Origin: a virus
Length of the DNA: 33,618 bases
Strand: one strand, 5' to 3'
IMG/VR virus record: IMGVR_UViG_3300046028_001801
Location: 1-33,618 of that record
This document shows, in pieces, positions 10,302-25,464 of this stretch. Both the position numbers and the translations under genes were made by a program. Positions within the stretch are counted from its first letter, which is position 1. Each line of letters opens with the position of its first letter. Under the pieces are notes generated by a model. That model ran no database searches and had not been told where the DNA came from. It worked only from the letters and a program-made list of their open reading frames with translations.

Positions 10302-10702
10302 TGTTTCCATTGACAGCGTTGTTTGATGTTGGGATGAAAGTCCTTGATAAGTTTATTCCCGATCCAGAAGCTAAAGCAAAAGCACAGCAAGAACTCTTAC
10401 AAATGCAACAAGAAGGCAAATTAGCTGAATTAAATGCTGATAATATAGAGGCTCAAGAACTCACCAAGCGACAATCTGCTGATATGATGTCAGACTCTTG
10501 GCTTAGTAAGAACATTCGCCCTATGACGCTTATATTTATTCTATTGACCTATACAGTCTTTGGCATGATGAGCGCTTGGGATATTGAGGTTAATAACAAT
10601 TATGTAGAACTCCTTGGTCAATGGGGGATGCTCATAATGAGCTTTTACTTTGGCGGCAGAACGCTAGAAAAAGTAATGGAGATGAAGAAAAATGCTAAGT
10701 AA
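10301..10702 (+). CDS. GTA_holin_3TM-type holin (133 aa)
   Basis: The N terminus, LFDVGMKVLDKFIPDPEAKA followed by a Gln/Glu-rich helix, and the central block RQSADMMSDSWLSKNIRPMT are the signature of the holin family first described for gene transfer agent release (PF11351). Two or three membrane segments follow (LIFILLTYTVFGMMSA; VELLGQWGMLIMSFYFGG), then a lysine-rich tail. It would make the membrane lesion that lets the downstream muramidase reach the murein. The gene overlaps the muramidase start by 11 nt, whose SD (AATGGAGATG) lies inside this gene. Confidence 0.8.
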   Translation: MFPLTALFDVGMKVLDKFIPDPEAKAKAQQELLQMQQEGKLAELNADNIEAQELTKRQSADMMSDSWLSKNIRPMTLIFILLTYTVFGMMSAWDIEVNNNYVELLGQWGMLIMSFYFGGRTLEKVMEMKKNAK

Positions 10703-14843: not shown

Positions 14844-14878
14844 AAAATTTCTAAACAAATAAACTAAAGGAAACTAAA

Positions 14879-16006
14879 ATGGCTCAACATTCAAATATTG
14901 TCGGTGGCTCAACTGCTAAAAGGGTTATGGGTTGCCCAGGCTCTGTAGCGTTATGCGCTAAGATGCCCCCAAGACCAAGTAGCGTCTACGCTGACTTAGG
15001 TACATTACTCCACAATGCAGTAGCACAAGTGCTTGACCAAGGCGTAACGCCTGAGTCCTTAATCGGTATGAAGTATCAAGACCAAGTGCTTACGCAAGAC
15101 CATATTGATAACAAACTTCACGTTGCTTTAGATTTACTTGGCGAGATAGATCCTAAGTTAGAAATGGAATATGCCGTCGAGACTGAGGTTGGCTTTGGTG
15201 ACTTCTTACCTGATGTGTTCGGTTCATGTGACTTGCTAGGCCGTATCGGTAATCGGGCTATTGTGTTAGATTGGAAGTTTGGCGATGGCGTAGCCGTGGG
15301 TGTAGAAGAAAACGAACAGCTTTTATTCTATGCAGCAGCAGCTATGCGTACACCTTCAGTAGCATGGGTGTTTGATGGCGCAACGGAAATTGAGTGTGTT
15401 ATCGTGCAACCACCAAGTGTCAAGCGTTGGGTAACAACCGTTGAGCGTGTCAAAATTTTTGAAAATAATTTAGTTGCATCCGTTAAAGAATCACAAAAGG
15501 CAAACGCAGGCCTCAACGCGGGTGAGCATTGTCGTTGGTGCGCTGCAAAACCAATCTGCCCTAAGATGACAGGTGCAGTTGACCGTGCCTTGCAGGAGCA
15601 GTTGGTGAGCCTCGATGCTGATATGATAGGTGGCTACTTAAAGAATTGTGATCTGTTAGAACAATGGATTACCGATCTGCGAGCGTTAGCGCATCAGATG
15701 TTAGAAGCCGATAAACCTGTGCCTGGTTGGAAGTTAGTCAATAAGCGTGCCACACGGCAATGGGCGAACGATGATCAGGCAGCAGACGTGTTAGCAAAAG
15801 TTATTCCCGAAGCTGAGTTGTATGTGACTAAACTCATTACACCAGCAGTTGCGGAAAAGATACTCAAGAAGTTAGGTGAGCAATTGCCTAATGACTTAGT
15901 AATAGCAGTAAGTAGTGGTAGCACGTTGGCACGGGAAGAAGATCCTCGTCCAGCCGTAGTACAAATCGGGAAGCAACTTGTTGCAGCCCTCTCTAAAATC
16001 CAATAG
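14879..16006 (+). CDS. DUF2800-type PD-(D/E)XK nuclease, Cas4/AddB-like with four-Cys cluster
   Basis: 375 aa. The RecB-type nuclease motifs are in order: GTLLHNAVAQ (His45), GSCDLLG (Asp118), LDWKFGDG (Asp131, Lys133) and NEQLLFYAAA (Gln147). One Cys near the N terminus (MGCPGS, Cys19) and three at C218-C221-C227 (HCRWCAAKPICPK) match the iron-sulphur layout of AddB/Cas4 nucleases. The phage family is usually annotated DUF2800 and is thought to be an exonuclease producing single-stranded ends for recombination or replication. It begins the rightward replication operon 36 nt after a TATAAT promoter, and its neighbour 11 nt downstream may be the partner that coats the ssDNA. Confidence 0.85.
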   Translation: MAQHSNIVGGSTAKRVMGCPGSVALCAKMPPRPSSVYADLGTLLHNAVAQVLDQGVTPESLIGMKYQDQVLTQDHIDNKLHVALDLLGEIDPKLEMEYAVETEVGFGDFLPDVFGSCDLLGRIGNRAIVLDWKFGDGVAVGVEENEQLLFYAAAAMRTPSVAWVFDGATEIECVIVQPPSVKRWVTTVERVKIFENNLVASVKESQKANAGLNAGEHCRWCAAKPICPKMTGAVDRALQEQLVSLDADMIGGYLKNCDLLEQWITDLRALAHQMLEADKPVPGWKLVNKRATRQWANDDQAADVLAKVIPEAELYVTKLITPAVAEKILKKLGEQLPNDLVIAVSSGSTLAREEDPRPAVVQIGKQLVAALSKIQ

Positions 16007-18948: not shown

Positions 18949-21258
18949 ATGCACAACTTTTTAGAGTTTATCACGAATTTAGCGCCAGAGGGCGAGACTG
19001 CCTTGATTGTGCGCCAAAAGCCACAGTTAAAAGATGGCGAATTACAGTTGCACGCCGATGGTGCTATTAAATGCACATGGCCTGCGTATTTGCCAAGTCA
19101 CAGGATGAAGGACGGTGAGGCGTGGTACATCAATACTGCATCTTTTATCATAGACCGCTTTGAGGATGGGCGTGTGTCAGCGTCCGCAGTCAACTGCGAG
19201 TTCGTTCTTTTTATGATGCTAGATGACATCGGCACCAAGTCGAAAACACCGCCCCTTGCACCGACATGGATTCTTGAGACTAGCCCTGATAATTTTCAAT
19301 ACGGCTACGCTTTCTCCGAACAACCCACGAAGGGTGAGTTCACGGCAGCGGTCAAAGCGATTGCTGCGGCAGGTTACACCGATGCAGGCGCCACAAACGC
19401 CGTCCGAAATGTACGTCTGCCAGGCTCGATCAACCTGAAGCCTGGGCGAGATAACTTCGAAGCCAAGTTAGTCGAGTTCCATCCTGAGCGTGATTACACG
19501 CTAGGCGATATTTGCACGGCGCTAGGTGTGACGCCTGCGCCTGCTGACACGAATCATTACGCACCGATTAGACTCGCCGACAATGGTGGCGATGATGTGT
19601 TAGCATGGATGAATGATCAAGGCATGGTATTGTCGAAGATCAACGGCGAAGGGTGGTTATCAGTCACTTGCCCAAACAACGCCGAACACACCGATGGCAA
19701 CCCCGAAGGTCGGTACAAACCCCTAGATCGTTCTTATTGTTGCTTGCACTCGCATTGTGTCGATTTCGGTAGTCAAACATTTCTCGATTGGGTAGCCGCT
19801 AACGGTGGCCCTAAAGTTACACATGGCTTGCGTGACAAATTGATCGCTGAGGCGATGACGGTTGCGCTTGCCAAGATCACGCCTAGTGATATGTTTACTG
19901 ATGATGCCGACGCTAAGATAGCCGAAGTCGAGCGTAAAGAGTTAGGGCGTGTCGAGAAGTCCAAGTGGTATGAGCGTTTCGCTTATGTGCAAGATGACGA
20001 ATCTTTCTTTGATATGCAAGATCGCCGTGAGGTGTCAAGACAGACTTTTAACGCTCTGTTCCGTCACATCAAGTGTCTATCACTACATACAAACACCAAG
20101 ATAGAAGCATCAATCTGCTTTGACCAGAACAGACAAGCGATGGGCGCTAAGGCGCTCGTGGGGATTACTTACGCCGCAGGCGAGACGGTGCTAGTCGCCC
20201 GTGACGGTGATTTGTATGGCAACCGTTGGCGTGACGCTCGCCCTGATGTGTCAGCCGTGGTTGCATCGGAATCGAAAATAGCGTCTTGGCTAGACCATTG
20301 CCGTGAGTTAGTGCCTGAGCCTGAAGAGTTAGAACATTTACTTAACATCATGGCTTTTAAACTGCAACACCCCGAATTAAAAATTAATCATGCCGTCTTG
20401 CACGGTGGCGATGAGGGTTGCGGTAAAGATACGATGTGGGCGCCATTCATTTGGTCGGTGTGCGGTAGCCATTTAAAGAACCGTGGCATTATGGATAACA
20501 ACTCGATTAATAGTCAATGGGGTTATCAATTAGAGTCTGAAATACTTTTAATCAATGAGCTGAAAGAACCCGATGCGTCCGCTCGTAGGCAGTTGGCGAA
20601 CCAACTCAAACCGATAATAGCGGCTCCCCCTGAGATGCTACCGATTAATCGTAAGGGTTTACACCCATACCAAATGGCTAATAGACTATTCGTTTTAGCG
20701 TTCTCGAATGACCCTGTTCCAATCTCGTTAGCGTCACAGGACAGGCGATGGTTTTGCGTATGGTCGGCAACTGGGCGCATGGATTCGAACAAAGCCAAAG
20801 AGATGTGGGATTGGTATAGACATGGCGGGTTCGAGTCGATTTCAGCGTGGCTACACGCTCGTGATGTGAGTAAGTTTAATCCGTCAGCGTCACCGATGAT
20901 GACCGAGTTCAAAGCGAACCTAGTTGAACACGGCATGAGTATGGCAGAATCGTTCTTGGTCGAGATGCTCAAGGGTCGCAAGGGCGAGTTCGCTAAGGGT
21001 GTGATCGGTTCACCGTTTCATGCGCTCTGTGACCGTCTAACAGGGCTTGCGCCTTCTAATGTTAAAGTGCCACAAGCCGCCCTCTTACACGCTCTCAAAG
21101 AGGCTGGCTGGGTAGACTGTGGACGCTTGAAGTCGAGAGAGTTTGACACGAAGAAGCATATTTTTGCTGACCCCGAAATAGCGTCAATTCTGAGTAAGTC
21201 TGAGTTAAGGCGTGCGCTTGAGGATGTGCCAACACCCCAAAGCGTCAATATTAAGTAA
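18949..21258 (+). CDS. Primase-helicase: RepB/PrimPol-type primase fused to DUF5906 SF3-like helicase
   Basis: 769 aa, SD AAGGAAACACAAA. Residues 80-170 contain an archaeo-eukaryotic-type primase core: FVLFMMLDDIGTK (D92-D93) and the conserved RNVRLPGSINLKPG. A Cys/His cluster follows (CPNNAEH 241-247, CCLHSHC 264-270), probably a zinc-binding element. Residues 480-640 form the helicase: Walker A HGGDEGCGKDT (486-495), Walker B-like EILLINELKE (~531-540), and FVLAFSNDPVPI as sensor, typical of the DUF5906 family of phage replicative helicases. The protein would prime and unwind DNA for the polymerase encoded just upstream. It closes the rightward operon at a bidirectional terminator. Confidence 0.88.
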   Translation: MHNFLEFITNLAPEGETALIVRQKPQLKDGELQLHADGAIKCTWPAYLPSHRMKDGEAWYINTASFIIDRFEDGRVSASAVNCEFVLFMMLDDIGTKSKTPPLAPTWILETSPDNFQYGYAFSEQPTKGEFTAAVKAIAAAGYTDAGATNAVRNVRLPGSINLKPGRDNFEAKLVEFHPERDYTLGDICTALGVTPAPADTNHYAPIRLADNGGDDVLAWMNDQGMVLSKINGEGWLSVTCPNNAEHTDGNPEGRYKPLDRSYCCLHSHCVDFGSQTFLDWVAANGGPKVTHGLRDKLIAEAMTVALAKITPSDMFTDDADAKIAEVERKELGRVEKSKWYERFAYVQDDESFFDMQDRREVSRQTFNALFRHIKCLSLHTNTKIEASICFDQNRQAMGAKALVGITYAAGETVLVARDGDLYGNRWRDARPDVSAVVASESKIASWLDHCRELVPEPEELEHLLNIMAFKLQHPELKINHAVLHGGDEGCGKDTMWAPFIWSVCGSHLKNRGIMDNNSINSQWGYQLESEILLINELKEPDASARRQLANQLKPIIAAPPEMLPINRKGLHPYQMANRLFVLAFSNDPVPISLASQDRRWFCVWSATGRMDSNKAKEMWDWYRHGGFESISAWLHARDVSKFNPSASPMMTEFKANLVEHGMSMAESFLVEMLKGRKGEFAKGVIGSPFHALCDRLTGLAPSNVKVPQAALLHALKEAGWVDCGRLKSREFDTKKHIFADPEIASILSKSELRRALEDVPTPQSVNIK

Positions 21259-21262
21259 AAAT

Positions 21263-21287
21263 AAAGCCCCGATTAAGGGGCTTTTTA
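21263..21287. terminator. Bidirectional rho-independent terminator
   Basis: Perfect 8-bp stem AAAGCCCC (21263-21270) / GGGGCTTT (21277-21284) with a 6-nt loop; T-rich on the plus strand after the stem (TTATTT) and T-rich on the minus strand too (TATTTTTAC). It closes both the rightward primase-helicase operon and the leftward microprotein operon. Confidence 0.92.
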
Positions 21288-21303: not shown

Positions 21304-21366
21304 TTATAAATCAAATACGGCTATGATTAATAATGCAATAGCACTTACGATAAAAGCAGTTAGCAT
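21304..21366 (-). CDS. 20-residue transmembrane microprotein, last gene of leftward operon
   Basis: The whole peptide is one membrane helix: MLTAFIVSAIALLIIAVFDL. The ATG overlaps the upstream stop (ATGCTAA) and GGAG lies 8 nt before it. Its stop is 20 nt before the bidirectional terminator, as expected for the end of a transcript. Evidence is short length plus SD and coupling; no homologue is known to me. Confidence 0.5.
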   Translation of the reverse strand: MLTAFIVSAIALLIIAVFDL

Positions 21367-21470
21367 GAGATTACTCCGTTATATTTGTTAGCGAATAGTT
21401 GGGCGGATGTTTTATCGTTAAACCTGATAGAGTAATCTTCGCCTTGTATTTTGTAGTGGACTATATACAT
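21360..21470 (-). CDS. Small hypothetical protein (36 aa)
   Basis: MYIVHYKIQGEDYSIRFNDK begins a compact beta-strand-rich protein ending VISC. SD GGGAGAGCG lies in the end of the upstream gene, with 10-nt overlap there and 7-nt overlap with the next ORF. Unknown function. Confidence 0.5.
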   Translation of the reverse strand: MYIVHYKIQGEDYSIRFNDKTSAQLFANKYNGVISC

Positions 21471-21628
21471 ACGCTCTCCCATATCTCCAGTTCTTCTTCT
21501 ATCTTGTGCATAGTTGTGCAGATATCACTCCATTTTGCGTCATATTGTGGGTCGCCTTCGGGTATGCAATTCTCTCTCATATCGCATAAAGCGTCCCATA
21601 TAACTTCTAATTCGTCTCTTGTAATCAT
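21461..21628 (-). CDS. Small acidic hypothetical protein (55 aa)
   Basis: ATGA overlap with the upstream gene and SD GAGGAG eight nt before the start. Two helical acidic segments (TRDELEVIWDALCDM; HKIEEELEIWESVCI), several Cys and Trp. Unknown function. Confidence 0.6.
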   Translation of the reverse strand: MITRDELEVIWDALCDMRENCIPEGDPQYDAKWSDICTTMHKIEEELEIWESVCI

Positions 21629-21789
21629 TCTTCAATCTCCTCTATTGTTGGATTGCAATATTCTTCTTCTTGCTCAAGTTCGTCAAAATAATCAAATAAT
21701 TCCTCTTTTACCTTGCTTGACGGATAAACGGATTCTTCTTCGCCATCGTCCCAAACAATGTTCAGCGTGTAGGATTTAATTTTTCTCAT
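21625..21789 (-). CDS. Strongly acidic small protein (54 aa)
   Basis: Starts MRKIKSYTLNIVWDDGEEES and ends in a Glu/Asp-rich helix (LFDYFDELEQEEEY, IEEIEE). Many acidic residues against few basic ones; acidic microproteins of phages often bind host DNA-binding proteins or mimic DNA. Coupled by ATGA to the upstream gene through a GAAATGGAG SD. Confidence 0.6.
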   Translation of the reverse strand: MRKIKSYTLNIVWDDGEEESVYPSSKVKEELFDYFDELEQEEEYCNPTIEEIEE

Positions 21790-22064
21790 ACAGACTCCAT
21801 TTCGTAAATTAGTTCATAAGATAAAACCTTAAAATCGCTTGCACCGTCTAGCATGAGACTTTTTAATTCTTCTTCGCCACGGTTACAGTAGTAAAAAATA
21901 TGCGTGTCGGGGATACCGTAAGAGTCATTCCCCCAGTCTTGCCCTTCGTCGTTCTCGTAATCGAACCCAGCGTCCCCAAAACTAAAGTAATAATTCTCTA
22001 TCGGGTTCGCTTCGTCCGTGTATTGAATTGTTGCGTATGCGCCTATTGCTATTGGATTCTTCAT
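21786..22064 (-). CDS. Acidic small protein (92 aa)
   Basis: Beta-rich N terminus (GAYATIQYTDEANPIENYYF), then a very acidic Gly/Asp stretch (GDAGFDYENDEGQDWGNDSY) and a helical end LIYEMESV. Coupled (ATGA) at both ends; the 3' end carries the ACGAAATGGAGTCTGTATGA coupling element that recurs at 22061. Function unknown; abundance of Asp/Tyr suggests a protein-binding role. Confidence 0.65.
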   Translation of the reverse strand: MKNPIAIGAYATIQYTDEANPIENYYFSFGDAGFDYENDEGQDWGNDSYGIPDTHIFYYCNRGEEELKSLMLDGASDFKVLSYELIYEMESV

Positions 22065-22288
22065 ACCGTCTCCATTTCGTCAAAATAATCATGCTCAACA
22101 ATACCGTGATTAAGGCATACATTGACAAAATTGTCCGCCAGTTCTTTATTTGCGCTGATAGCATCAACAAGCATTTGTTCAATGTCGCCTCTATCTTCGA
22201 TGTCTATATCTTGCTCGTGCCATTCAAAATTATCTGTAAGGCGTGCAATACAAGCGTAAACCCAGTTTTCTAATTTAACATTTTTCAT
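22061..22288 (-). CDS. Acidic helical small protein (75 aa)
   Basis: MKNVKLENWVYACIARLTDN followed by an acidic segment (EWHEQDIDIEDRGDIEQMLV) and ending DYFDEMETV. Starts 2 nt after the stop of the upstream gene and ends with the 20-nt coupling element. The WVYACIARLTDNFEWHE pattern is common in small phage proteins of unknown function. Confidence 0.65.
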   Translation of the reverse strand: MKNVKLENWVYACIARLTDNFEWHEQDIDIEDRGDIEQMLVDAISANKELADNFVNVCLNHGIVEHDYFDEMETV

Positions 22289-22290
22289 TT

Positions 22291-22467
22291 TTAAACCCTC
22301 TTAAATTGTTTATAGAGATAAGTTAGAACCGCTTGTCCGTCCTCTACCATTTCTTTATCGGACTCGTAACAATCGTTTGACGGTTCCATATTTTGTAAAT
22401 AGTAGCCACAAAGCACGGACAACATATTTAAATCGCTTAATTGCTCTTTAGTAATTTCGATTAGCAT
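22291..22467 (-). CDS. Small hypothetical protein (58 aa)
   Basis: Strong SD (GAGGAGAGCGTAAA) inside the upstream gene, 7-nt overlap with it. Sequence MLIEITKEQLSDLNMLSVLC, then a helical acidic middle (YESDKEMVEDGQAV) and a basic C terminus (YKQFKRV). Unknown function. Confidence 0.6.
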   Translation of the reverse strand: MLIEITKEQLSDLNMLSVLCGYYLQNMEPSNDCYESDKEMVEDGQAVLTYLYKQFKRV

Positions 22468-22634
22468 TTTACGCTCTCCTCATATTCTTCGATTGATTCG
22501 GCTTCAATCTCGTAGACTGTCATCTGGTCGGCTTCGTCCAGTTCCATTGTGTTGGCTAAATTAATTGCAACACTTTCCGTGTCGGCTTCAATGGTATAAA
22601 TAACCTCAATAGTCTTTTTAACAATATATTCCAT
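22461..22634 (-). CDS. Acidic small protein (57 aa)
   Basis: MEYIVKKTIEVIYTIEADTE followed by a helical, Glu-rich end (YEIEAESIEEYEES). The 'VIYTIEADTESVAINLAN' pattern alternates strands and helices and is typical of small phage proteins. It starts 2 nt after the upstream stop. Confidence 0.6.
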   Translation of the reverse strand: MEYIVKKTIEVIYTIEADTESVAINLANTMELDEADQMTVYEIEAESIEEYEESVKC

Positions 22635-22636
22635 GA

Positions 22637-22879
22637 TTAAATTGTCTCCTCGATGTGATAGTTATGCCCTAGCGTGTCATAAATTTCAACGCTTAACCGT
22701 CCGTCCGTCATATTGTCATAGCCTACAAAGCCGTAGCGTAGAAGATAAGTGAGCGTGGCATCGTTAGAGTCTACACAGTCAAGGCAATCAATTTCATATT
22801 CTATTAACTCTTTTATCCATTCTTCCCTAGTGCGCTCAACTCTGTTAGATTCAAAATCAACTCGTATTAATTTTTGCAT
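22637..22879 (-). CDS. Small hypothetical protein (80 aa)
   Basis: MQKLIRVDFESNRVERTREE, then a helix and an acidic, Cys-containing stretch (IDCLDCVDSNDATLTYLLRY), ending in a beta-like LSVEIYDTLGHNYHIEE. AAGGG lies before the start. It follows two short hairpins at 22915-22957. Function unknown. Confidence 0.65.
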   Translation of the reverse strand: MQKLIRVDFESNRVERTREEWIKELIEYEIDCLDCVDSNDATLTYLLRYGFVGYDNMTDGRLSVEIYDTLGHNYHIEETI

Positions 22880-22914
22880 GATGTAACCCTTCGATTAGTT
22901 TAGATTAGTGTATT

Positions 22915-22957
22915 GGCTAAAATTAGCCCTATAGCGTCCCTCAACAGAGACGCTATA
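22915..22957 (-). other. Two adjacent hairpins in a leftward intergenic gap
   Basis: TATAGCGTC (22930-22938) pairs with GACGCTATA (22949-22957), nine bp, and GGCTA (22915-22919) pairs with TAGCC (22924-22928). There is no U run of terminator type. They separate the 32-aa membrane gene from the 80-aa gene and could be mRNA processing, attenuation or stability elements. Confidence 0.45.
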
Positions 22958-22968
22958 AGATAACTCTA

Positions 22969-23067
22969 TTAATACCAACCCTTTGCGTATATCCATATCC
23001 CTGCCAAGGCTAGCCCCATTAAAACGCTAAAGATTGCGCCTAGTATGTAATCAATGTATGGCTTCAT
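22969..23067 (-). CDS. 32-residue single-TM microprotein
   Basis: MKPYIDYILGAIFSVLMGLA is followed by LAGIWIYAKGWY: one long membrane helix from about residue 5 to 27 with a short positively charged C-terminal end. ATGA overlap with the 23064-23231 gene supports that it is translated. No homologue recognised. Confidence 0.55.
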   Translation of the reverse strand: MKPYIDYILGAIFSVLMGLALAGIWIYAKGWY

Positions 23068-23231
23068 TGTGTGACCTCGTCCGTAGGCTCTAACGCTCTT
23101 GCATATTTATCTGTTACATCGGGATATAACTCGTTAAATGCGTCCCAAAACTGAAATGAATAGTCATCTCTATTTGCGCCTGTGCTTATTGCGTGCGCTA
23201 TGATTGCGTCAAAATCAATAGTTAATATCAT
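23064..23231 (-). CDS. Small acidic hypothetical protein (55 aa)
   Basis: I take the ATG at 23231 (MILTIDFDAIIAHAISTG), because GGAAGG lies 6 nt upstream; a longer frame begins at GTG 23267 inside the previous gene. The body reads FQFWDAFNELYPDVTDKYAR and ends EPTDEVTQ, the same last four residues (EVTQ) as the 112-aa protein at 23449. Unknown function. Confidence 0.6.
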   Translation of the reverse strand: MILTIDFDAIIAHAISTGANRDDYSFQFWDAFNELYPDVTDKYARALEPTDEVTQ

Positions 23232-23233
23232 GG

Positions 23234-23452
23234 TTAGCCTTCCATATCGTTTAGGTTGATATACCAAGATGAGGGGATTGCTTGCATGGGCTTATAGTAG
23301 TTATTGCCTTGGTTCTCGAAAGTAATTTCACCGATTGAAAATGTTTTCCCTGTGCTAAACGGTAAGTAGAGCGTGAACACCTTACCGTTGAGCGAATCAC
23401 GGATTAGGGTTTTTTGTGCGGTGTTGCGCTTTGATGTGCGGTATTTTTTCAT
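23234..23452 (-). CDS. Small basic hypothetical protein (72 aa)
   Basis: The basic N terminus (MKKYRTSKRNTAQKTLIRDS) and a beta-rich remainder (GKVFTLYLPFSTGKTFSIGE) differ from the acidic neighbours. ATGA overlap with the 112-aa gene. It may bind nucleic acid through the basic end; no domain recognised. Confidence 0.6.
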   Translation of the reverse strand: MKKYRTSKRNTAQKTLIRDSLNGKVFTLYLPFSTGKTFSIGEITFENQGNNYYKPMQAIPSSWYINLNDMEG

Positions 23453-23787
23453 TGTGTAACCTCATCGTGGTTAGTTTCCCAATTTGTCATATACTCATCG
23501 GCATACCATTCGGCAACAAACCAAACAACGGCATTTTTAAATTGAGTGGCGCTATCGAGATTTTTAACGATGTAATCGGGCATTTCGCCAGTCATCTCTT
23601 TGTATTCGCTTATTATGTCGTGTAACTCATCTGCGAACACATCATATATGGCGGTTGTCTCGTTGTAATAAACAAGACCGCATACGCCATTTTGACAACC
23701 CGAATGGTTGATATTTTCCCAATCGGGATGCTCATAAGTATCTAGCATCCATTGTTTAAAAGTATTGTATTTTGTGTAATCGCTCAT
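23449..23787 (-). CDS. Phage hypothetical protein (112 aa), largest in the microprotein operon
   Basis: 112 aa, SD AAGGAAAACACAA. Motifs: TFKQWMLDTYEHPDWENINH, SGCQNGVCGLVYYNETTAIY, then a helical half ending FVAEWYADEYMTN. Two Cys (residues ~31 and 36) in GCQNGVCG might coordinate a metal. Proteins with an N-terminal W-x-x-D-x-Y and a terminal 'AEWYADE' helix occur in many environmental phages, without assigned function. It is preceded by a GNRA-loop hairpin and followed by coupled genes. Confidence 0.7.
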   Translation of the reverse strand: MSDYTKYNTFKQWMLDTYEHPDWENINHSGCQNGVCGLVYYNETTAIYDVFADELHDIISEYKEMTGEMPDYIVKNLDSATQFKNAVVWFVAEWYADEYMTNWETNHDEVTQ

Positions 23788-23817
23788 TTTGTGTTTTCCT
23801 TAGTTTAGTGAATTAGT

Positions 23818-23833
23818 GAGGGCTTTCGCCCTC
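23818..23833 (-). other. Hairpin with GNRA tetraloop between two leftward genes
   Basis: GAGGGC (23818-23823) and GCCCTC (23828-23833) form a 6-bp GC-rich stem; in the leftward transcript the loop is GAAA, a stable GNRA tetraloop. No U run follows on that strand, so it is more likely a stability or processing element than a terminator. Confidence 0.55.
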
Positions 23834-23838
23834 TTTGG

Positions 23839-23979
23839 TTAGAATTCTGTTAGTAGTAGCGCAATTACTAGCGCATCATTTTTAGATTGCAAGGCACGAA
23901 CTATTAAATCATTCTCAAGCGCCAATTCTGGCGCAACACTTAATTGCTCGCACTTTGCTATAAATTGTGATTGTGTCAT
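23839..23979 (-). CDS. Small hypothetical protein (46 aa)
   Basis: SD AAAGGATAAACAAA before ATG. MTQSQFIAKCEQLSVAPELA, then a helix ending VIALLLTEF. Short, helical, unknown function. Confidence 0.55.
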   Translation of the reverse strand: MTQSQFIAKCEQLSVAPELALENDLIVRALQSKNDALVIALLLTEF

Positions 23980-23991
23980 TTTGTTTATCCT

Positions 23992-24183
23992 TTAGTTGAG
24001 TTTAGTTAGTATGTTTAAATCTCTTATTGCTTTGTGTGCATGGCTTACTGTGTGCGATATGTAATCGTATCTGATACGCTCTTTATCTAAGTCTTTAATG
24101 CAATCTGTTAAGTCCTCTATCAAGTCCTGTAGATATAACAATCTGCCTTTTTCGCTCATTTTGTTTAGGTCAATATCAATCAT
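23992..24183 (-). CDS. Small coiled helical protein (63 aa)
   Basis: MIDIDLNKMSEKGRLLYLQD continues into a charged helix (LIEDLTDCIKDLDKERIRYD) and a second helix (SHTVSHAHKAIRDLNILTKL). Probably a helical hairpin. GGAATCT lies before the start. Unknown function. Confidence 0.6.
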   Translation of the reverse strand: MIDIDLNKMSEKGRLLYLQDLIEDLTDCIKDLDKERIRYDYISHTVSHAHKAIRDLNILTKLN

Positions 24184-24208
24184 TTTTAGATTCCTTTAAT
24201 TTAGTTAA

Positions 24209-24373
24209 TTACCAAGAAATAAAATCTTCGTGTTGTCTTTCAAATATTGCTAACGCTTGCTCAATTGCCATTTGCTCTGTAATGCCTTTTTCAAGATACG
24301 GTGAATAGTCAATTGACACGGTTTTATATCCATCTTTAGATAAATACCTTTCTTGTGTGATGTATGTTGTCAT
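24209..24373 (-). CDS. First gene of the leftward microprotein operon (54 aa)
   Basis: SD AAAGGAAAACAAC before ATG. MTTYITQERYLSKDGYKTVS then SPYLEKGITEQMAIEQALAI and a terminal Trp. Probably small alpha/beta. Promoters for this operon must lie in the iteron-rich region just upstream; a weak minus-strand pair (TTCAAC at 24607-24602 and TATATA at 24585-24580, 16-nt spacer) is a candidate only. Confidence 0.6.
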   Translation of the reverse strand: MTTYITQERYLSKDGYKTVSIDYSPYLEKGITEQMAIEQALAIFERQHEDFISW

Positions 24374-24993
24374 GTTGTTTTCCTTTGTTTAATTAATTAC
24401 TACACCTTGATTTGAACATAGGTAGATTTTAAACGCAACGGATTTCGTTACATTTATGCAAATAAATGCAAAATAATTATTTGAGGATTGTCCACGGTGG
24501 ATAAGATGTGGGCTATTTGTGGATGATGCGTAATCGTGTGAGAACCTTGCACGGCTTGAGAGTGGATATTGTGGATAGTTATATATACCTTATTCTATGA
24601 AGTTGAATAGTATATAAATAAGTATAATGACCTGTAGAGTTACGACGGCTGAAAATGGACTTGTCCACTTGTCCACTTGACCCACGCTTACCCCATGCCT
24701 TTTGTCCCCCGCTTTTTCCTTTCCCCTTGATGTGGGTAATGTGGACACCTAGAAAACAATAACCCATGTTGTCCACAATGTAACGGCTAACGGCTAGTAA
24801 CTGGCGGTTAAATTCTACTTGTCCGCATTGTCCAAGTAGCCCACGGCTTACAGTTGTTAGCAAGCACTTACTAGCAGAGGGCAAAAACTTTTAGCATGGG
24901 GGGGGTAGGTCCGAGCCGAACGGCCCTATGGCGGCGGAGCGTTTGCCCAAACTTTTTATTTTTTTTATAAAAAATCTATGCTAATATTCCACT
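24374..24993. other. Iteron-rich intergenic region, candidate replication origin (and possibly packaging site)
   Basis: 620 nt with no credible gene. About ten copies of a TTGTCCAC / GTGGATAA-type octamer occur on both strands: 24488, 24497, 24518, 24562, 24570, 24661, 24669, 24740, 24769, plus variants at 24819 and 24829. The best single matches to the DnaA box TTATCCACA are TGTGGATAG (24570-24578) and TTGTCCACA (24769-24777), each 8 of 9. Other elements: a palindromic pair TTGTCCACGGTGGATAA (24488-24504), a tandem ACGGCTAACGGCTA (24784-24797), a direct repeat ATGCAAATAA/ATGCAAAATAA (24456-24476), an AT-rich stretch around 24580-24630 and a G8 run (24898-24905) before a GC-rich block. It separates the leftward microprotein operon from terS. 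Confidence 0.65.
24943..24987 (+). promoter_or_regulatory. Late-operon promoter region upstream of terS
   Basis: TTGCCC (24943-24948) and TATAAA (24966-24971) have 17-nt spacing. A second, extended -10 (TGCTAATAT, 24979-24987) would start transcription at or next to the terS ATG at 24994, giving a leaderless message; no SD is present in either case. Which is used cannot be settled by reading. Confidence 0.5.
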
Positions 24994-25464
24994 ATGTTTG
25001 ATAACTTTCATTCCTATGTGTATGAGCCACGCAAGCTAGAAGCTACCGAGGCTAGATTGCAACGCATCTACGATGCTGCCAAGTTAGGACTCAAAGGCGA
25101 CACACTTGCCCTCGCTGCTGGGATGCGCCCTACCGAATACCGACAGCTCACGCAACTAGATCCCATTGCCGAATATGCTGAACAAAAAGGCAAAGCCGAT
25201 GGCGAGATGGAGTTATCAGCGATACTGCACAAAGCCGCTGCTGATGGCGACGCTAAAGCTGCGCTAGAAATTCTCAAGCACACCCACGGTTGGGTAGCTA
25301 AACAACAACTGTCGATAGATGTTGAGCAGCGCATCTCGATCACAGCCGCACTCGAACAAGCGCAACACCGCGTGATCGAAGGCGTGTTCAAACAAGTGGA
25401 TGATCAAACCAACGATGCCGAAATGCTCCACGTGAAACCTCAACTCAAACAAAAGGTAGCGTAA
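24994..25464 (+). CDS. terS: Terminase small subunit (DNA recognition)
   Basis: 156 aa. The N-terminal half is a helix-turn-helix-type domain (RIYDAAKLGLKGDTLALAAG, MRPTEYRQLTQLDP), followed by helices for oligomerisation (KADGEMELSAILHKAAADGD) and the conserved ALEILKHTHGWV block of small terminase-like proteins. It recognises the packaging site in concatemeric DNA and hands it to the large subunit two genes downstream. It starts right after the iteron-rich region, where the packaging site could lie. No SD precedes the ATG. Confidence 0.82.
   Translation: MFDNFHSYVYEPRKLEATEARLQRIYDAAKLGLKGDTLALAAGMRPTEYRQLTQLDPIAEYAEQKGKADGEMELSAILHKAAADGDAKAALEILKHTHGWVAKQQLSIDVEQRISITAALEQAQHRVIEGVFKQVDDQTNDAEMLHVKPQLKQKVA

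Follow-up and report, generated by a model that had tools for sequence, protein, structure and literature searches.

A variable leftward cassette of sixteen small genes with a conserved 20-residue closing peptide in a P22-like virus

The virus record IMGVR_UViG_3300046028_001801 (IMG/VR), which is taken whole (33,618 bases) and is called the window here, carries a leftward cassette of sixteen very small genes (g1 to g16) between two rightward genes, those of the primase (18949-21258) and of the small terminase (24994-25464). Judging from its sequence, we regard it as fairly probable that the virus is a freshwater podovirus of the P22-like type and that the cassette is one of its accessory operons, built as a modular rack of microgenes. 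By comparison with its relatives, its shortest open reading frame (ORF), g16, is the most conserved cassette gene, whereas the others turn over. The relatives comprise 80 records that share the same slot and have been gathered by a primase scan, so that 81 slots have been compared. The P22-like virion gene set of the window has been recognised through its relationship to annotated relatives. Megablast of the region against phage records has returned zero matches, and Rhodoferax phage P26218 has, by annotation, only the virion gene plan in common with the window. An assignment to a host has been rejected, as the eight primase-bearing genome-bin contigs belong to bins of mixed phyla (two are beta-proteobacterial or Rhodoferax by name).

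Architecture of the cassette

The original prediction had described sixteen consecutive minus-strand ORFs, and an independent dynamic-programming chain over ORFs preceded by a Shine-Dalgarno sequence (SD), in which ATG starts and SD matches are rewarded, has returned the identical sixteen from 24373 to 21304 and none extra. All of them start with ATG, and the SDs and overlaps claimed earlier have been recovered, with an SD match before 16 of 16 genes and overlaps of 4 (five), 7 (two) or 10 nucleotides (nt; one) at eight joints; three further joints have a spacing of +2 nt, and the remaining gaps measure 12, 25, 51 and 89 nt. The sixteen ORFs occupy 92% of the stretch and leave 12 joints within 12 nt, whereas in 40 dinucleotide shuffles 3.4 ± 1.4 ORFs cover 12% and form 0.08 such joints; on the opposite strand of the slot, chaining yields 2 ORFs. 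With sixteen small same-strand genes and twelve overlapping or nearly touching ends, the cassette has the build of a lambdoid-type accessory operon. The start of g6 has been placed at 23231 (55 amino acids, aa) and that of g15 at 21470 (36 aa), and the homology blocks of the relatives begin at those exact bases. The strong acidity noticed at the outset amounts to a net charge of -107 over 961 aa, i.e., -11.1 per 100 residues against -1.3 in 25 other phage proteins, and the two single hydrophobic helices have been identified as g7 (32 aa) and g16 (20 aa).

The genes and the two longest joints are given below in the order of transcription; L with a number denotes a relative, the linker is a recurrent sequence of the form CTAAACTAAAGGAAA..-ATG, and dN/dS (the ratio of nonsynonymous to synonymous substitution rates) has been calculated pairwise for homologues at least 70% identical.

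24209..24373, minus strand: g1, 54 aa; start linker ATTAATTAAACAAAGGAAAACAAC; 73% identical in L039 (dN/dS 0.19) and 82% in L179
23992..24183, minus strand: g2, 63 aa; start linker; orphan, called from SD and ORF only
23839..23979, minus strand: g3, 46 aa; start linker; four distinct relatives 85-96% identical, dN/dS 0.03-0.51
23788..23838, minus strand: g3-g4 intergenic joint; hairpin GAGGGC-GAAA-GCCCTC and linker CTAAACTAAGGAAAACACAAA; folding z -3.7
23449..23787, minus strand: g4, 112 aa; DUF7222 family; charge -16; dN/dS 0.04-0.07
23234..23452, minus strand: g5, 72 aa; the sole clearly basic member (+5); orphan; ATGA overlap with g4
23064..23231, minus strand: g6, 55 aa; charge -8; three relatives 81-89% identical, dN/dS 0.08-0.28
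22969..23067, minus strand: g7, 32 aa, single hydrophobic helix; cluster in 34 of 81 slots; dN/dS 0.08-0.24 (dS measurable)
22880..22968, minus strand: g7-g8 intergenic joint, 89 nt; 15-pair hairpin (about 22925-22960) and linker; folding z -4.8
22637..22879, minus strand: g8, 80 aa; charge -10; L002 95% identical, dN/dS 0.08
22461..22634, minus strand: g9, 57 aa; charge -13; dN/dS 0.04 (two relatives)
22291..22467, minus strand: g10, 58 aa; charge -5; cluster in 15 slots; dN/dS 0.09-0.34
22061..22288, minus strand: g11, 75 aa; charge -13; dN/dS 0.12-0.20; a relative in the 58-kb contig of L162
21786..22064, minus strand: g12, 92 aa; charge -15; dN/dS 0.06-0.07 (two relatives) and 0.80 (one close pair)
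21625..21789, minus strand: g13, 54 aa; charge -13; dN/dS 0.14-0.32
21461..21628, minus strand: g14, 55 aa; charge -11; dN/dS 0.02-0.06 (four relatives)
21360..21470, minus strand: g15, 36 aa; the commonest soluble member, with a tblastn match in 34 relatives; dN/dS 0.06-0.17
21304..21366, minus strand: g16, hydrophobic micropeptide of 20 aa, MLTAFIVSAIALLIIAVFDL; last gene of the operon

An alternative ORF of 33 aa (22996-22895) has been rejected, as it overlaps the end of g7 and the conserved hairpin.

Selection and family assignments

For thirteen genes (g1, g3, g4, g6-g11 and g13-g16) dN/dS lies at 0.01-0.34, with a single outlier of 0.51 in one g3 pair. The value of 0.80 for g12 comes from a low-divergence pair with L032, and the lower ones from L028 and L030. 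Values near 1, named in the original prediction as grounds for abandoning it, have thus been found in this one g12 pair only, and most relatives keep the positions of start and stop codons. Comparison among the relatives therefore shows fourteen of the sixteen to be real genes under selection, which is purifying in almost all of them. The earlier claim of real translation, made even for the shortest ORFs, holds for these fourteen, mostly through dN/dS of 0.01-0.3 and for g16 also through codon-position mismatches; for g2 and g5 the support consists of SD, position and joints, as a search of the slots and of 2.9 million viral contigs has, at the sensitivity used, given no relative of either.

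None of the proteins had been thought to belong to a known family, which has turned out to be wrong for g4, a member of Pfam DUF7222 (PF23864) with an E-value of 1e-13 and 51.9 bits against a cut-off of 27. The gene also matches PHROGs 27501 and 2543, both without function, and its predicted fold (mean predicted local distance difference test score, pLDDT, 71) supports the membership assigned by sequence, the viral Foldseek matches (BFVD) being DUF7222 proteins with a probability of 0.99. Against the PDB, the predicted folds of g4 and of g12 (mean pLDDT 78) have given no match below E 6 and E 3.5, respectively. Two further candidates have been rejected: the PHROG "DNA sliding clamp inhibitor" for g13, whose match (E 0.0018 over 28 acidic residues) has been judged to be driven by composition, and Prophage_tail for g5, which falls below the cut-off (E 0.0086).

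Among 85 other families found in the slots of relatives, twenty PHROGs have been matched, those with names being a RusA-like resolvase, a sliding clamp and an amidoligase; further matches, to DUF7227, GP88 and a class-II glutamine amidotransferase, come from Pfam. The few families that can be named are related to DNA metabolism or enzyme-like. The gene resembling the sliding clamp of DNA polymerase III (about 200-215 aa; L028:7292-7903, L044:11814-12461) belongs to a cluster present in 16 slots. In L016, L023 and L026, an amidoligase-like protein (about 440 aa) and a glutamine-amidotransferase-like protein (about 345 aa), possibly a peptide-modifying pair, replace much of the microgene run.

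Gene-sized exchange in a hypervariable slot

The genes flanking the slot remain collinear among the relatives, and its content is highly variable: 746 called proteins in the 81 slots, some of them spurious calls, fall into 197 clusters (92 singletons), and the slots of divergent relatives also hold leftward runs of short genes. In L002, L032, L003 and L004, whose primase protein is 97.7-99% identical to that of the window and whose left flank aligns over 97-100% at about 90-92% DNA identity, the aligned part of the cassette amounts to 55%, at least 46%, at least 25% and 11%, respectively, the figures for L032 and L003 being lower bounds from short contigs. Over all pairs, the median alignable fraction of the slot is 0.49 at a primase DNA identity of 90-95% and 0.16 at 80-85%, and the content is identical in all 15 pairs at 98% or above.

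This turnover follows gene borders. The left ends of BLAST blocks fall exactly on a start codon in 115 of 988 cases against 3.6 expected, and a start is found no more than 10 nt away from 32-38% of the block ends, where 7% would be expected. Exactly one gene is present or absent in 60 of the 79 clean distinct joints that have been collected. As an example, g12 is cleanly absent in L002 and L003, where the joint consists of the 20-nt sequence ACGAAATGGAG..C.GTATGA. In the window, the same 20 nt end both g11 and g12, which places g12 between direct repeats that hold the last codons, the SD and the ATGA overlap. Joints as clean as this mark the lack of g8, g10 and g14 in L032, and a joint of L012 and L033 shares a linker of 24 nt. 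L162, which belongs to a 58-kb contig, holds relatives of g4, of g11 and of some six further cassette families, and in the stretch of it that has been fetched no primase of this group has been seen, so that the cassette genes probably come from a pool common to different phage types.

Two kinds of joint

At the overlapping stop-start joints the SD lies inside the upstream gene, and the longer joints combine a hairpin of the RNA type with the unstructured linker. Over 104 distinct intergenic gaps of 40-130 nt, the median folding z is -2.8, compared with -0.14 in coding stretches. Few of these hairpins are followed by T runs, and thus they are no ordinary terminators. The g7-g8 hairpin is paired at 100% of its 15 pairs in 7 sequences, with compensatory changes on both sides of 6 pairs, whereas slid controls fail, and the same element has been found between other genes in L009, L024 and L040.

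Among linkers that precede non-homologous genes, 132 pairs agree at 20 or more of 24 nt, while independent columns predict 0.0, and non-homologous coupled starts agree at 19 or more of 24 nt in 11 pairs, against 0.2 expected from the SD profile. In the relatives, the coding strand of the slot carries 100 copies of the linker, of which 88 have an ATG no more than about 14 nt away, and the other strand carries one; 26 further copies lie outside the slot, and many of these stand at the head of the replication operon, in front of its first gene. If up to 3 mismatches are allowed, 8 matches are found in the window where 1.6 would be expected. One with 1 mismatch (14859-14879) stands before the gene that opens the rightward replication operon and suggests a shared early-gene translation signal. 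The linker is, by these counts, a recurrent start sequence of this clade, and the view that it is specific to the cassette has been rejected, because the start of the replication operon carries it too.

The closing peptide

A counterpart of g16 has been found on the same strand near the end of the primase gene in 132 of 134 loci, in each case as a hydrophobic peptide of 19-20 residues (hydropathy above 1.9) that ends in a polar residue followed by leucine (once isoleucine). Counted were loci of sufficient length whose primase has an identity of 68.5% or more; some contigs enter twice through two primase scans, and the loci represent 97 different sequences at the DNA level and 70 different peptides. 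Under the same criteria, controls have given 0 of 132 on the opposite strand and 0 of 376 in other windows of the slot. Where the peptide starts with methionine, the last residue is leucine in 66 of 67 and the one before it aspartate in 57 of 67. Mismatches at codon positions 1:2:3 are distributed as 213:35:511 and 238:64:479, a pattern by which translation and constraint are well supported, and a terminator-like hairpin follows 0-30 nt past the stop in 127 of 132.

More distant relatives, with a primase of about 53-68% identity, have no g16-type ORF at the corresponding place, and no peptide of 19-20 aa ending in a polar residue and leucine has been seen in the slots of DSL-LC05 and MW202483. 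Searches of phage records, the PDB and PHROGs have given no match to g16, queries of 20 residues having little power. Compared with the literature in open papers, the g16 family appears to be new; some of the families described here may already be listed in Fremin et al. 2022, on small phage genes.

Proposed function and alternative explanations

Position, direction, size, acidity and turnover of the cassette fit an early role in host takeover or anti-defence, and for its fast-changing genes an anti-defence role is plausible. We propose that the operon would be transcribed early from a promoter somewhere in 24374-24993, with overlapping joints coupling and hairpin joints insulating translation, and that every gene inserted at a joint would as a result be expressed immediately. 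The acidic microproteins would bind host proteins, such as defence, replication or transcription factors, and would turn over because hosts differ. The g16 peptide would span the inner membrane and serve a constant phage function, for which an effect on the membrane potential or on a membrane protein seems the likeliest route. The full proposal, a plug-in rack that takes up single microgenes from a cross-phage pool for instant expression and is closed by a near-universal family of transmembrane peptides of 19-20 residues with a core function, is tentative, and we hold it with somewhat less than even confidence.

Several results weigh against our reading of the cassette as a modular accessory operon of this kind. 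No promoter stands out in the scan, promoter-like matches being fewer than in shuffles. PADLOC has given no convincing match for the sixteen genes (best E 0.004) and only marginal ones, judged to be chance, for the 85 other slot families (best E 0.002-0.004 across scans), and no cassette protein has matched a known anti-defence or host-takeover family in profile searches. Homology at the joints has a median of 4 nt, often ATGA, and the linker, which also precedes the replication operon, may serve ribosomes at early genes in general and not recombination. The last two points speak for an explanation that we consider evenly balanced, namely that breakpoints are gene-exact through selection alone, illegitimate recombination having occurred anywhere, only exchanges of intact genes having survived and the joints having no role in it: fewer than 9 nt are shared at 61 of the 79 joints, and the linker is used outside the cassette. 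Yet 9-24 nt are shared at the other 18, including the g11/g12 repeat and the L012/L033 linker, and the 11 pairs of similar coupled starts exceed what the SD profile predicts. A reading by directed recombination only has not been adopted because of the low median, and with joint homology mostly limited to a few bases we think that homology has guided a minority of the exchanges and that the chief filter has been selection for intact genes.

The remaining alternatives concern what the genes do, or whether they are genes. The slot might serve mainly lysogeny or immunity and replication control, its microproteins regulating the phage itself and not the host. A "repressor protein C" is annotated in the same slot of DSL-LC05, a more distant relative, a "dnaa protein helix-turn-helix" lies in that of MW202483, and some slots carry the sliding-clamp-like protein (Pfam E 4.9e-9, PHROG E 1e-13) and the RusA-like resolvase; however, no regulator or DNA-binding family has been matched among the sixteen, and the strong gene turnover between close relatives is unusual for core control genes; we consider this explanation unlikely. 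It is rather doubtful, too, that g16 resembles the type I toxins of the Ibs kind in function and would depolarise the membrane, e.g., to weaken the cell or block superinfection. The length is alike (IbsC has 19 aa) and the helix almost wholly hydrophobic, but no antisense RNA family has been found in the region (one match below threshold), g16 has no sequence match in phage records or the PDB, and its constant position, C-terminal D-L and operon setting differ from a toxin/RNA pair. That most ORFs are chance or decaying frames in non-coding DNA would agree with the lack of relatives of g2 and g5; the shuffles, the low dN/dS and the kept starts and stops have refuted it for the other fourteen, and as a general explanation it is extremely improbable.

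The roughly 80 relatives provide a natural series of single-gene gains and losses with joints resolved to the base, by which a direct test becomes possible of the long-standing question whether mosaic joints are directed by short border sequences or only filtered by selection. As the g16 family shows, a gene of 20 codons can be better conserved than all its neighbours in a region that is fluid apart from it; genes of this size are shorter than gene finders usually accept, and similar core micropeptides have probably been missed in many phage genomes. If the proposal of a rack with a core peptide is true, the family would be among the shortest conserved phage proteins. Small phage genes are usually dismissed singly, and the cassette makes this overlooked kind of gene testable.

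Comparison with known systems

The early accessory regions of lambdoid phages (e.g., nin) consist of small genes on one strand, which often overlap and for the most part have no known function. For phage mosaicism, the "boundary sequence" model describes exchange at gene borders, with short shared sequences at some of them (PMC3029335). Both traits are found in the cassette, too, a run of small genes with exchange at gene borders, and boundary sequences are present and significant at its joints, reaching at least 9 nt at only 18 of the 79 clean ones. It differs from the lambdoid regions in the phage type, in its place between primase and small terminase on the strand opposite to both, in its strong turnover by single-gene steps over 79 joints, and in the near-invariant closing gene of 20 aa. 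In all, the cassette works in the manner of boundary-sequence mosaics and of the accessory regions of lambdoid phages, and we class it as a variant of these.

At the joint of genes 67 and 68 in Island3 and Brujita, an extra small gene repeats the C-terminal codons of the upstream gene, implying recombination between sequences of about 50 bp, and this has been reported as the first such case in mycobacteriophages (PMC3029335). A repeat joint of this sort is seen at g11/g12 on the 20-nt scale, with the difference that such joints recur in several relatives of the cassette. In Cluster K mycobacteriophages, the Start-Associated Sequence (SAS) is an asymmetric repeat that stands directly ahead of the start codon in unrelated genes and in many cases has an inverted repeat on its upstream side (extended SAS) (PMC3203893). 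The linker, likewise tied to starts and repeated before unrelated genes, resembles SAS in kind and is not a member, since its sequence differs from GGGATAGGAGCCC of SAS, as do hairpin sequence and host; the window holds 0 matches to GGGATAGGAGCCC at up to 2 mismatches. Ibs type I toxins form a nearly all-hydrophobic helix of 19 residues that depolarises the membrane and needs its C-terminal residues (PMC8309996). The g16 family agrees with them in size and hydrophobicity and differs in being last in a phage operon and in ending with D-L; no Sib or other antitoxin RNA family has been found in the region, where an undescribed RNA could escape. Phage DSL-LC05 of the proposed family "Luchaoviridae" (PMC10611076) has a TerL 67% identical, a similar gene order and small leftward genes in the same slot, and none of the sixteen genes has been found in it.

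Leader, terminator and neighbouring repeats

Two non-coding features border the cassette.

24374..24993, no strand assigned: non-coding leader of 620 nt from the cassette to the small terminase gene, with no long ORF
21263..21284, no strand assigned: terminator-like inverted repeat, predicted bidirectional intrinsic terminator, which separates the cassette from the convergent primase gene

A consensus scan of both strands has confirmed the predicted bidirectional terminator as an inverted repeat with T runs on both sides. The leader presumably holds the leftward promoter, and its end adjoining the small terminase gene terS (24875-24992) is 75-95% identical in many relatives. Direct and inverted repeats of the TTGTCCAC type, iteron- or DnaA-box-like, occur in it at 24661-24686, 24732-24756 and 24828-24845 and are possibly candidate sites of a replication origin or operator. 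Between the cassette terminator and the primase end, within the last 150-300 nt of the slot and beside the primase stop, many relatives (L005, L006, L007, L012, L016 and L044) carry repeat units of about 20 nt (e.g., GGGGACGCTATTTTCGATTA or AAACGCTCCCGTTTTTTGCAG), which have not been seen in the window. Directly past its cassette terminator, L006 further shows a run of GAGCTA/GAGCTG hexamer repeats (about 10520-10660).

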